Source of the DNA: Candidatus Petromonas tenebris
GTDB lineage: Bacteria > Bacillota > Clostridia > Peptostreptococcales > Caminicellaceae
DNA: 59,183 nt
Reading direction: 5' to 3'
Assembly (NCBI GenBank): GCA_014236755.1
Contig: JACCKY010000010.1
Location: 1 to 59,183 of the forward strand
Below the pieces are notes generated by a model that was not told where the DNA came from, did no database searches, and worked only from the letters and a program-made list of their open reading frames with translations. Position 1 is the stretch's first letter. Each line of letters starts with the position of its first letter. The position numbers and the translations under genes are program-made. Shown here in pieces: positions 32,996 to 38,126 of this stretch.

Positions 32996-35900
32996 ATGTT
33001 TAAAACTAAAAAGCTGAGTCTATTACTTGTTCTGATGTTGGTTCTCACTTCAGTTTTTGCGAATCCTTTCTTCGTGAGTGCTGAAGCAAATGAACAGGTA
33101 ACGATTACCGTATTGGGTACTACAGATATCCATGGCAATATTTATGACTGGTCCTATGAGGATCAGGATACAGATGACGATGTAGGTTTGGCAAAGGTTT
33201 ATACTATTGTAAAGCAGGTAAGAGCTGAAAATCCAAACACAATACTAATTGATAATGGGGATACACTTCAGGGAACTATTCTAACGGACGATCTTTATAA
33301 TAATGATTTTACACAGCCAAATCCTATGATTGACGTAATGAATTTTATGGGCTATGATGTAATGACCCTTGGAAACCATGAATTTAATTTTGGATTGGAA
33401 TTAATTAAAAAGGCTGTTGATGAAGCTGAGTTTCCAATAATTTCTGCCAATATTTACAATAAAGCAGACGGGACTAATTTTGTCAAGCCGTACGTTGTAA
33501 AGGTAGTTGGAGGAGTTAGGGTAGGAATTTTAGGTCTTACTACTCCGAATATACCTTTATGGGATGGGCCTAATGTAACAAGTCTTGAATTTAAGCATAT
33601 GGCAGATGAGGCAGAAAAATATGTTAAGATTCTTAGGGAAAAAGAAAAGGTAGATCTTATTATTGCTAGCGCTCACGCAGGTCTTGAAGGAAGATATGAT
33701 CCAAATGAAGGAGATGCAGTCAAGCATGTATTGGCTAGGGCTCCTGAAATTAAAGCTATTCTAATAGGACATGATCACAAGGAAATAGCAGAGGAAATCA
33801 ATGGTACATTGGTTGGTGCTGCAGATGACAAGGGAAATCAAGTGGTGAGATTTGATTTAACCTTGGAAAATAAAAATGGCACATGGGCTGTTACAAACAA
33901 AAAAGTTCAACTTATAGACACTAAAGGTGTCGAAGCTTCCCAAGAAGTTAAGGATTACGCAGCCAAGTATCATGAGGCAACTCTTGAATTCTTAAAGAAA
34001 ACCTTGGGTATGGCAACTGGAAATTTCCATCCAGAAAGTGAAGTGCCTGGTATTCCAGAAGCTCAAATCAGAGATACGGCAGTAATAGATTTGATAAATG
34101 AAGTTCAGCTTAAATATACAGGAGCAGATGTTGCTGCTGCTGCATTGTTTAAACCTGATTCCAATATTGAAAAAGGGCCTGTAACCTATAGTGACATATT
34201 TGATATATATAAATATCCCAACACACTTTATGCTGTAGAAGTTACCGGTAAGCAGCTTAAAGAATACATGGAATGGTCCGCAAGCTACTATAATACATAC
34301 AAGCCGGGAGATGTGACAATAAGCTTTAATCCCGATATAAGAGGATACAACTACGATATGTTTGCAGGTGTAGAGTATAAGATTGATATATCTAAACCAC
34401 CAGGTGAAAGAATAGTTGATCTTACTTTTAAAGGTAAACCTGTAGAAGATGACCAGATCTTTAAGCTTGCAGTTAATAATTATAGATTTGGAAGTACTCT
34501 TCAAAGTAAAGGTATGGTAAGTAAAGAGCCTTATTTTAAATCTGATCCCGTATCCTTGAGAAGTTATATTGCAGAATATATTGAAGAAAAAGGTACTATT
34601 GAACCTAAAGTTGACAACAATTGGGAAATTATAGGTGCAGATTTAAATCACCCACTTAGAGATTATATAATAGAACAGGTTAAGGCAGGCAATATTGAAG
34701 TACCTACTTCAGAGGATGGCAGAACTCCAAATGTTAAATCACTTAACGTATATGAATTGATAAGAGAAGGGAAAATACCTCAGGAAAAGCTTGATGAGTT
34801 GGGTATTGACTATACACCTTTGACAATAATTCATACTAATGATACCCATGCAAGAATTGAAGAAGGCAAATACGATGGAATGGGATTTGCTAAAATAGCG
34901 ACTAAGGTTAAACAATTAAGGAAGCAAAATAAAAATGTATTAGTCCTTGATGCAGGTGATACTTTCCATGGACAGACAATAGCTTCATTGGTTAAAGGAG
35001 AAAGTATCGTTAAGATAATGAATACTATAGGCTATGATGCTATGGTACCTGGTAACCATGATTTTAACTATGGATGGGAAAGACTTGTTGAGTTATCACA
35101 AATGAGTGATTATCCAATACTAGCAGCAAACGTAGTTAAGGAAGATGGAACTGCATTGTTGAGTCCTTATATAATAAAGAAAATTGGTGGACTCAACATA
35201 GGCATTTTTGGATTAGCTACTCCTGAAACCACCTATAAGACTCATCCAAAGAATGTAGAAGGACTTACTTTTAAAGATCCTGTTGAAACTGCAAAGGAAA
35301 TAGTTGCTGAGCTTAAGGATAAAGCGGATATTATAATAGCTCTAACCCATTTGGGAATGGATGAAAGTAGTACTGATACAAGTATAAAACTTGCTAAAGA
35401 AGTCGGCGGCATAGATTTAATTGTTGACGGTCATAGCCATACTGCACTGTCTGAAGGCAAAAAAGTAAATGGAACATTAATTGTTCAAGCCGGTGAATAC
35501 GACAAAAATTTAGGTATAGTGAATTTAGTATATCAAGATGGAAAAATTACTTCTATACAGGCTTCTTTACTGACTAAGGAAGAAGCGGTAGATATTCCGG
35601 AGGATAAAGAAGTGATGACAGCCATTAAAGAAATCAAGGCTGAAAATGATAAGATTATTTCAGTTGTGGTAGGCAATACAGATATATATCTTGATGGTGA
35701 AAGGAGTCACGTAAGAAGCGGAGAAACTAACATTGGAAACCTGATAGCTACTGCAATGATTCAGGCAACAGGTGCAGACATAGCTCTAACAAATGGAGGT
35801 GGAATAAGGGCATCGATAGAACCAGGTGAAATAACAAAGGGTGATATAATAGCAGTGCTGCCCTTTGGTAACTATGTAGTAGTTAAGGAAGTGAAAGGTT

Positions 35901-36406
35901 CAGATATTCTTGCAGCTCTAGAACATGGGATATCTTCATACCCTGAAGCAAAGGGGGCATTTCCACACGTTGCAGGCATGACATTCCGATTTGATCCATC
36001 TAAACCAGCCGGAAGCAGATTGGTAGAAGTTAAAGTTGCCGGAAAGCCTCTGGATCCTGACAAGACATATAAGTTGGCAACAAATGATTTCTTAGCAGCA
36101 GGTGGCGACGAGTATACAATGTTTGCCGATGATAAGATTCTTGGTGAATATCCAGGCTTAGATGAAATAGTTATCGCCCATATTCAAAAATATGGCGTTG
36201 CCGATGCCAAAACTGATGGAAGAGTGAAGGTATATAAAACAGCAGTTGATGGAAACATAGAGACATACATTGTTAAACCGGGAGATGTTTTATGGAAAAT
36301 AGCCAAGAAATTCGGTTTAGCTTGGGAAAAATTAGCTAAGTACAATAAAATGAAAAATCCAAGCCTAATATTCCCAGGACAGAAGATATTGATACCAGTA
36401 AAATAA
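32996..36406 (+). CDS. secreted bifunctional nucleotidase / cyclic phosphodiesterase with LysM
   Basis: 1136 residues. A signal peptide (KTKKLSLLLVLMLVLTSVFA) directs export. Two complete metallophosphatase plus 5'-nucleotidase C-terminal units follow. The first has TTDIHGNIYDW, DNGDTLQGT, GNHEFNFG and GHDHKEIAE (CpdB-like). The second has HTNDTHARIEEG, DAGDTFHGQ, GNHDFNYGW, VDGHSHTALSEG and LTNGGGIRASIEPGE (UshA/YfkN-like). A C-terminal LysM (YIVKPGDVLWKIAKKF, about 1089-1134) should hold it on peptidoglycan. The pair would hydrolyse 2',3'-cyclic nucleotides and nucleotides to nucleoside and phosphate outside the cell. AAAGGAGG precedes ATG 32996. Confidence 0.95.
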   Translation: MFKTKKLSLLLVLMLVLTSVFANPFFVSAEANEQVTITVLGTTDIHGNIYDWSYEDQDTDDDVGLAKVYTIVKQVRAENPNTILIDNGDTLQGTILTDDLYNNDFTQPNPMIDVMNFMGYDVMTLGNHEFNFGLELIKKAVDEAEFPIISANIYNKADGTNFVKPYVVKVVGGVRVGILGLTTPNIPLWDGPNVTSLEFKHMADEAEKYVKILREKEKVDLIIASAHAGLEGRYDPNEGDAVKHVLARAPEIKAILIGHDHKEIAEEINGTLVGAADDKGNQVVRFDLTLENKNGTWAVTNKKVQLIDTKGVEASQEVKDYAAKYHEATLEFLKKTLGMATGNFHPESEVPGIPEAQIRDTAVIDLINEVQLKYTGADVAAAALFKPDSNIEKGPVTYSDIFDIYKYPNTLYAVEVTGKQLKEYMEWSASYYNTYKPGDVTISFNPDIRGYNYDMFAGVEYKIDISKPPGERIVDLTFKGKPVEDDQIFKLAVNNYRFGSTLQSKGMVSKEPYFKSDPVSLRSYIAEYIEEKGTIEPKVDNNWEIIGADLNHPLRDYIIEQVKAGNIEVPTSEDGRTPNVKSLNVYELIREGKIPQEKLDELGIDYTPLTIIHTNDTHARIEEGKYDGMGFAKIATKVKQLRKQNKNVLVLDAGDTFHGQTIASLVKGESIVKIMNTIGYDAMVPGNHDFNYGWERLVELSQMSDYPILAANVVKEDGTALLSPYIIKKIGGLNIGIFGLATPETTYKTHPKNVEGLTFKDPVETAKEIVAELKDKADIIIALTHLGMDESSTDTSIKLAKEVGGIDLIVDGHSHTALSEGKKVNGTLIVQAGEYDKNLGIVNLVYQDGKITSIQASLLTKEEAVDIPEDKEVMTAIKEIKAENDKIISVVVGNTDIYLDGERSHVRSGETNIGNLIATAMIQATGADIALTNGGGIRASIEPGEITKGDIIAVLPFGNYVVVKEVKGSDILAALEHGISSYPEAKGAFPHVAGMTFRFDPSKPAGSRLVEVKVAGKPLDPDKTYKLATNDFLAAGGDEYTMFADDKILGEYPGLDEIVIAHIQKYGVADAKTDGRVKVYKTAVDGNIETYIVKPGDVLWKIAKKFGLAWEKLAKYNKMKNPSLIFPGQKILIPVK

Positions 36407-36743: not shown

Positions 36744-37706
36744 ATGGAAAAAAGTAAAGAGAGATATAGAAAGTATTCTACTTATCTAAAAGAAAAATAC
36801 GGTGAAAAGGTCTATAAAATTCCCATAAACCTTCCTGTCACTTGCCCAAACCGCGATGGGATACTGGGAACAGGAGGATGTGCATTTTGCGGTGATGTAG
36901 GAGCTGGTTTTGAAAGTCTAGAGAATACGATATCTGTTAAAGAACAGCTAAATAAAAACATTCAATACATAAGTAAAAAATACAAAGCAAAAAAGTATAT
37001 AGCCTACTTTCAAAACTTTACTAATACCTATATGCCTTTGGACAGTTTTAAAAATTATATTGAAGAGGCTGCTCAAATGGAAGATGTAGTAGAGATATGT
37101 GTTTCCACTAGACCTGACTGTGTAAATGATAAATACTTGTATGTATTAAATATAATAAAAAATAGTTATAATAAAGAAATAACTATTGAACTGGGCCTGC
37201 AGACAGTGAATTATAAGACCCTCAAAAGGATAAATAGGGGGCATACTCTTGCTGAGTTTATAGATGCAATGATTAGAATAAATAGGTATGGATTTGAAAG
37301 TTGCTGTCACTTAATACTGAATCTACCTTGGGACAGCATGGAAGATATAATAGAGGCTTCCAAAATAGTATCATCACTAGGGGTAGGGCAAGTAAAACTC
37401 CACTCACTCTATATACTCAGAAATACTAAGTTGGGAGAGATGTATGAAAATAATGAGTTTTCTATAATACCTGTTGAATCCTATGTGGATAGGGTGGTAG
37501 AGTTCTTAAAATACCTAAAGCCCGATATAGCCCTGCAAAGGCTAGTAGGAAGGGCGCCAAAAGAAGAAACATTATTTTGCAACTGGGATATGAGTTGGTG
37601 GAAAATTCAAGATATGATAGATGAAAAACTTAAGACTATGAATATTTATCAAGGGCTAGCATATGATTATCTGAACGGAAAAGCAGTAAAAAGGTTTGTC
37701 AAGTAA
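36744..37706 (+). CDS. radical SAM protein, YhcC/TIGR01212 family
   Basis: 320 residues. The cluster Cys residues lie in the spaced motif CPNRDGILGTGGCAFCG (about 33-49), typical of YhcC proteins rather than the plain CxxxCxxC. The barrel shows YFQNFTNTYMPL, CVSTRPDCVN, IELGLQTVNYKTLKRINRGH and KLHSLYILRNT. Function in the family is not firmly established; a modification or redox role has been proposed. GAAAGGAAA precedes ATG 36744. It ends at a strong terminator shared with the convergent selenoprotein gene. Confidence 0.9.
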   Translation: MEKSKERYRKYSTYLKEKYGEKVYKIPINLPVTCPNRDGILGTGGCAFCGDVGAGFESLENTISVKEQLNKNIQYISKKYKAKKYIAYFQNFTNTYMPLDSFKNYIEEAAQMEDVVEICVSTRPDCVNDKYLYVLNIIKNSYNKEITIELGLQTVNYKTLKRINRGHTLAEFIDAMIRINRYGFESCCHLILNLPWDSMEDIIEASKIVSSLGVGQVKLHSLYILRNTKLGEMYENNEFSIIPVESYVDRVVEFLKYLKPDIALQRLVGRAPKEETLFCNWDMSWWKIQDMIDEKLKTMNIYQGLAYDYLNGKAVKRFVK

Positions 37707-37710
37707 AATG

Positions 37711-37741
37711 GAAAACTTCCTGCAAACTACAGGAAGTTTTC
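37711..37741. terminator. bidirectional terminator
   Basis: A perfect 12-bp stem (GAAAACTTCCTG 37711-37722, CAGGAAGTTTTC 37730-37741). It overlaps the last codons of the - strand selenoprotein and ends the radical SAM gene. Confidence 0.9.
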
Positions 37742-37948
37742 TATCTCTTCGTTTTCAGGGAATCTGCCTGTTTCTTTTTTAGAGAATATGAGTTTTCCAT
37801 CTAAGGTAACCTCAAATACTCCTCCAGAAGATGGAATCAATTCAAAGGATTCAATTTCATTTTTATATTTTCCTAATAAGTGTTCAGCCAAGCCTATGGC
37901 CTTTGGTCTGTAACCTCAGCTTGTACAGTATTCTAATTTAAGTTTCAT
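37727..37948 (-). CDS. SelW/Rdx-type selenoprotein (TGA read as selenocysteine)
   Basis: Reading from ATG 37948 (GGAGGGATT upstream) gives MKLKLEYCTS, then TGA (37916-37918), then GYRPKAIGLAEHLLGKYKNE and on to TAG at 37727: 73 residues with Sec at 11. Cys8-Thr-Ser-Sec11 is the CxxU redox motif of the SelT/SelW/SelH (Rdx) thioredoxin-like family. LIPSSGGVFEVTLDGKLIFS and KKETGRFPE match the family body. A hairpin directly after the TGA supports recoding. The family is thought to act in thiol redox reactions. ORF prediction with TGA as stop would miss it. A nonsense mutation is much less likely, because the codon stands exactly where Cys or Sec belongs. Confidence 0.88.
37882..37914 (-). promoter_or_regulatory. 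bacterial SECIS-like hairpin
   Basis: On the - strand, one base after the TGA, the arm GTTaCAGaCCAAagGCC pairs through three small bulges with GGCTTGGCTGAAC around an ATA loop: 13 base pairs. Position and size fit a bacterial SECIS read by SelB. Confidence 0.75.
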
Positions 37949-38126
37949 AATAATCCCTCCAAAATAGATTTTAGTTACATATTTAATAATTTACCCAATA
38001 ATATATTTATTAATCACTCTAACTATAGGGTTTGCTTTAGAATAAATTGACAATGAATAAACTTAAAAAGATATTGCATATGTTATAATATAATGGTAAG
38101 ATTATGCCTGCATTGAGGAGGAGAAT

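Follow-up and report, generated by a model that had tools for sequence, protein, structure and literature searches.

SelW-like proteins with a CxxU motif are an established bacterial selenoprotein family. SelW-like genes have been counted in two large sequence sets, with 48 from the Sargasso Sea (PMC1088965) and 427 from GOS (PMC2398784). A SelW-like selenoprotein is listed for the clostridia Alkaliphilus metalliredigenes and Desulfotomaculum reducens and for Symbiobacterium in PMC1794560, where Cys homologues are given as scarce or absent among organisms that use Sec. The bacterial SelW-like selenoprotein is also covered in PMC13188914. For Campylobacter jejuni SelW (CJnc60), translation past the Sec UGA has been reported from Ribo-seq and proteomics (PMC11955535); C. 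jejuni is a distant organism, and its protein has 80-81 residues compared to 73 here, while NF041051, the best NCBIfam model for the present protein, has the short name SelTWH_Campy. Cys-type Rdx proteins (loci L051-L060 and Atu0228, PDB 2fa8) belong to the same family by sequence and carry CxxC instead of the CxxU found here. The gene at 37727-37948 is an ordinary member of the SelW-like family (SELENOW-like, PF10262): it has the CxxU motif with Sec near the N terminus, and no essential difference was found. What does differ between the clades compared here is the register of the hairpin 3' of the UGA.

The gene lies in a window of 59,183 nucleotides (the whole stretch of DNA analysed), which corresponds to contig C68 of the genome (2.94 Mb, 99.95 % complete, 120 contigs) and contains the only Rdx match in that genome. 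The original prediction was of a minus-strand gene with a good ribosome binding site, a TGA at the second redox position of a CTSU motif and an Rdx body continuing to a normal stop, and all of this was recovered (Table 1). The frame runs from ATG at 37948-37946 through the in-frame TGA at 37918-37916 to TAG at 37729-37727, and when TGA is read as Sec it gives a 73-residue product, MKLKLEYCTSUGYRPKAIG...ENFL, with CTSU as residues 8-11. It was also correctly anticipated that the gene would be missed when TGA is called as a stop: with table 11 the frame is listed only as a 54-aa piece starting from an internal TTG, and the case thus adds one correct gene which plain ORF calling shortens to a fragment without the redox motif. 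We consider the locus to be a single-copy SelW-like (Rdx) selenoprotein gene, the UGA of which would be decoded as Sec via SelB and a downstream stem-loop, with a probability of about 0.96. Judged from its sequence, the gene is very probably a working one.

Table 1 Features of the SelW-type locus in the window (SECIS positions are counted with the T of TGA as 1)
Feature	Position	Strand	Basis and remarks
SelW/Rdx-type selenoprotein gene	37727..37948	-	73 codons + TAG; reading frame and family profiles
In-frame TGA, read as Sec (U11 of CTSU)	37916..37918	-	Same column in 29 other loci read
Shine-Dalgarno-like GGAGGG	37955..37960	-	6 nt before ATG; seen directly
Short SECIS candidate, conserved	37886..37901	-	5-bp stem 18-22/29-33, loop TAGGCT holding GG
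Long bulged hairpin	37877..37918	-	MFE fold of single sequence; not conserved
Intrinsic terminator-like stem-loop	37711..37741	-	Overlaps last codons and stop of SelW; + strand match 37708-37744

By its profile scores the product is a member of the Rdx/SelW family. It scored 85.5 bits with Pfam Rdx (cut-off 22.6), 100.2 bits with NCBIfam NF041051 (cut-off 88) and 77.8 bits with TIGR02174 (cut-off 34.2), and the NCBI models for the family already carry the name '(seleno)protein'. Eight sequences of solved structures were matched at an E value of 0.1 or better, including Atu0228 (2fa8, the best match, E 5e-13), selenoprotein W (2npb, E 3e-6) and other Rdx-type proteins. The product presumably has a thioredoxin-like fold. 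Both the Cys and the Sec column of the motif near the N terminus, C8-T-S-U11, are invariant in the 30 sequences.

The TGA is conserved among relatives. When 148 genomes, all of the order and including the present one, were searched, 35 Rdx matches were found in 34 genomes, and every match contained exactly one in-frame TGA. Loci were available for 30 of these matches (the present gene and 29 others); on reading them, CxxU was found at the identical column in all 30, and five alignment columns were invariant. In a sample of 398 genomes of the phylum, again with the present one included, Rdx occurred in 31 genomes and one TGA was found in 28 of the 31 matches. The three matches without TGA were L071, which has CxxC, one which spans profile positions 45-72 only, and L085, which was not placed. 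The alignment pattern missed L057, L073, L075, L077 and L085, of which L073 and L077 were restored and the other three left out. L071, from genome G499, is a Cys-type Rdx inside the phylum, and the Sec form occurs in G362, which belongs to the same family as G499. A contig scan for Cys-type genes, the pattern of which had Cys at the Sec site and could find Cys forms only, returned ten loci; the nine that were read came from entries named Cyanobacteriota, cyanobacterium, Obscuribacter(ales), Melainabacteria or uncultured bacterium. The reported scarcity of Cys homologues in Sec users was matched here.

When the present gene was compared with five relatives over the region past the TGA, dN was 0.21-0.39 and dS at least 1.1 (saturated in one of the five pairs); by these estimates, purifying selection goes on downstream of the TGA. 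If the gene were really a Cys-type Rdx gene, one base change from TGT or TGC, whether misread in sequencing or arisen recently as a nonsense mutation, would be enough to give the TGA, and the assembly is in 120 contigs. The TGA is not a sequencing error, since the same codon was read in 29 other loci, so that a corrected read giving TGT or TGC, as had been allowed for originally, is not to be expected. The genome also reads Sec, by sequence, in SelD, GrdA and GrdB. We give practically no credence to an error or pseudogene, which is ruled out by the conservation of the TGA together with the selection past it.

Within the order, selA was present in 33 of the 34 genomes with Rdx and in 87 of the 114 without it (one of the 87 being below the cut-off), a co-occurrence with a one-sided Fisher p of 0.003 when relatedness is ignored. 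The Rdx genome without a selA match, G049, is 79 % complete. No Rdx match was found in the four other genomes of the organism's own family, all of which have selA, and the distribution of the SelW gene is therefore patchy.

The gene supports Sec decoding by the organism. A working Sec system had been predicted from the SelW gene, and the search for selA, selB, selC and selD, the absence of which would have spoken against it, found all four. On contig C113, selD, selA (C113:57942), selB (C113:59344) and tRNA-Sec (C113:68453) all lie within about 13.5 kb. The tRNA was called SeC with anticodon tca by ARAGORN, which called a second match above the gathering score of the tRNA-Sec model, on contig C7, as tRNA-Ser. 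The selD gene is itself of the Sec type (TSGUAAK). Reading of the UGA as Trp, Cys or a near-cognate amino acid, either by general reassignment or by readthrough without SelB, has in our view a very slight chance of being correct, and nothing specific speaks for it. TGA terminates other ORFs in the window (3 of 38 with 150 aa or more in a mechanical listing), on which ground general reassignment was rejected, the tca tRNA on C113 was called tRNA-SeC, and at the phylum level a hairpin 3' of the UGA covaries strongly.

With Sec decoding as the preferred reading, we infer from the sequence that the UGA would be translated through, that SelB would bind the hairpin and that the protein may have a redox role. 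Ribosomes at the UGA would not all stop; the stem-loop just 3' of it would recruit SelB with Sec-tRNA(UCA), and Sec would enter as the final residue of CxxU to give the 73-residue protein. Cys8 and Sec11 could then act on thiols or peroxides as a redox pair that forms a selenenylsulfide.

As a separate observation, the same genome contains a glycine reductase cluster on contig C65 (L090, 131-3430), in which GrdA has Sec (CFVU). A second gene of this cluster, named GrdB by eye, reads TSTUGTC, also with Sec.

The original prediction also described a 13-bp bulged hairpin starting one base after the TGA. A hairpin adjoining the TGA does exist as the minimum free energy fold (-14.5 kcal/mol, z -3.67; none of 200 dinucleotide shuffles was as stable), but the description was only approximate, as the fold consists of 17 pairs and includes the TGA, and the hairpin is not conserved in the 15 sequences of the own clade. 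Several properties could be taken to favour it as the functional SECIS. Only 0.8 % of 2000 synonymous recodings of the 45-nt segment were as stable, and 0.75-2.2 % across five segment lengths, with the codon usage of the window. In the free 45-nt RNA its apical pairs have probabilities of 0.96-0.98, and masking 9 nt leaves its upper part as the most stable fold (-6.9 kcal/mol). However, over the 15 own-clade sequences only 62.7 % of cells are paired and the covariation equals that of shuffles, the apical loop AUA is without G, RNAalifold chooses another stem, and it is the shorter stem-loop that folds best with 12 or 15 nt masked. The recoding test itself gave values under 5 % for two of ten other 42-nt SelW segments, one overlapping the hairpin and the other (2.4 %) clear of it. 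A SECIS function of the long hairpin is thus regarded as unlikely.

For the own clade, RNAalifold predicted pairs 18-21/30-33, and with 22-29 added 90.7 % of cells are paired and two pairs have one double change each. Sixteen of 500 shuffles were as good, and sliding the stem by -1 gave four double-change cells, at 42.7 % paired, compared to two in place; the support for the short stem is therefore modest. Ala17 is encoded by GCC in 14 of the 15 sequences, and the sole sequence with GCT has a matching G-to-A change at +30; GCC makes up 153 of the 877 Ala codons in window ORFs of at least 200 aa. In the free 45-nt RNA the pair probability of the short stem is about 0, while with 12 or 15 nt masked it is the best fold, at -6.7 kcal/mol. 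A ribosome at the UGA would mask about 12-15 nt of the mRNA. The short stem-loop is a better conserved candidate for the SECIS than the long hairpin, though a weak one.

The bacterial SECIS model given in PMC13188914 has a loop of 3-9 nt that begins with G within its positions 1-2, a stem of 4-16 bp, a spacing of 16-37 nt and an MFE of at most -7.5 kcal/mol. The short stem lies within the ranges for loop (6 nt), stem (5 bp) and spacing (19 nt) and, at -6.7 kcal/mol, misses the energy limit. Its hexaloop UAGGCU has G at positions 3-4 and not in the first two, and the G position fits only with a bulged U and an A-U-closed GGC loop, at -2.1 kcal/mol. The long fold (-14.5 kcal/mol) passes the energy limit, without G in the loop and without conservation. 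When the model was coded as a rule at -7.5 kcal/mol, it was fitted by 33 of 56 Sec genes compared to 5 of 10 Cys genes and did not separate the two; as half of the Cys genes fit it, passing the rule would prove little. A search of 37600-38100 with Rfam gave five matches, all under the gathering scores.

For comparison across the phylum, the 56 Sec genes were first split by eye into three register groups of 30, 15 and 11 and then counted, an order that biases the counts towards the structure of each group; L071, being of the Cys type, was left out. Shuffles, slides and RNAalifold were applied to the first two groups, and the third was counted only. The largest group was picked by eye for its register and comprises 30 sequences, of which 28 are distinct. 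Its hairpin, 19-25/29-35, has 24 double-change cells; shuffles averaged 5.5 and none reached 24, and sliding the structure gave 4-14. Of the cells of this hairpin 85.2 % are paired, compared to 25-58 % after sliding. Less weight attaches to the four pairs that show a double change, a number reached by 43 of 500 shuffles. RNAalifold on the same 30 sequences gave pairs 20-24/30-34. In the third group, the loop lies at +22 to +24 and 80 % of cells are paired. There is thus good support in the SelW family for a hairpin 3' of the UGA, with a register that varies by clade, and the evidence is weakest for the version of the own clade. The SelW orthologues across the phylum suggest that the SECIS loop can shift its place in the message relative to a fixed UGA. 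The wider use of the finding is modest, the orthologues being well suited to covariation analysis of bacterial SECIS elements.

The two structures could be combined in a two-way fold, in which a strong hairpin over the UGA in free mRNA would be opened by a ribosome at the UGA, freeing a short SECIS; the register of its loop would have shifted from clade to clade (+22, +24/25, +26) with the UGA fixed. Such a switch, opened by the ribosome, would tune Sec insertion. We regard this as improbable.

Downstream of the SelW gene, a convergent gene at 36744-37706 of the window encodes a radical SAM protein (PF04055 and PF16199). The terminator-like stem at the end of SelW probably works both ways and may serve the two genes. 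In 13 of the 15 own-clade loci, a radical SAM gene or homologue follows SelW downstream in convergent orientation, in most of them with a small gene between. A functional link, considered on the basis of neighbourhood clustering, is not claimed, the partner being convergent rather than co-directional.

In six loci of the same phylum (L083, L084, L086, L087, L088 and L089), a Sec-type SelW domain is followed in the same protein by a DUF2703 domain (PF10865, CxxC) at the C terminus; no paper in the set searched contains both the words DUF2703 and selenoprotein. Further along the window, positions 32996-36406 hold an ORF of 1136 aa which, judged by eye, consists of two 5'-nucleotidase-like domains in tandem with a LysM-like end.
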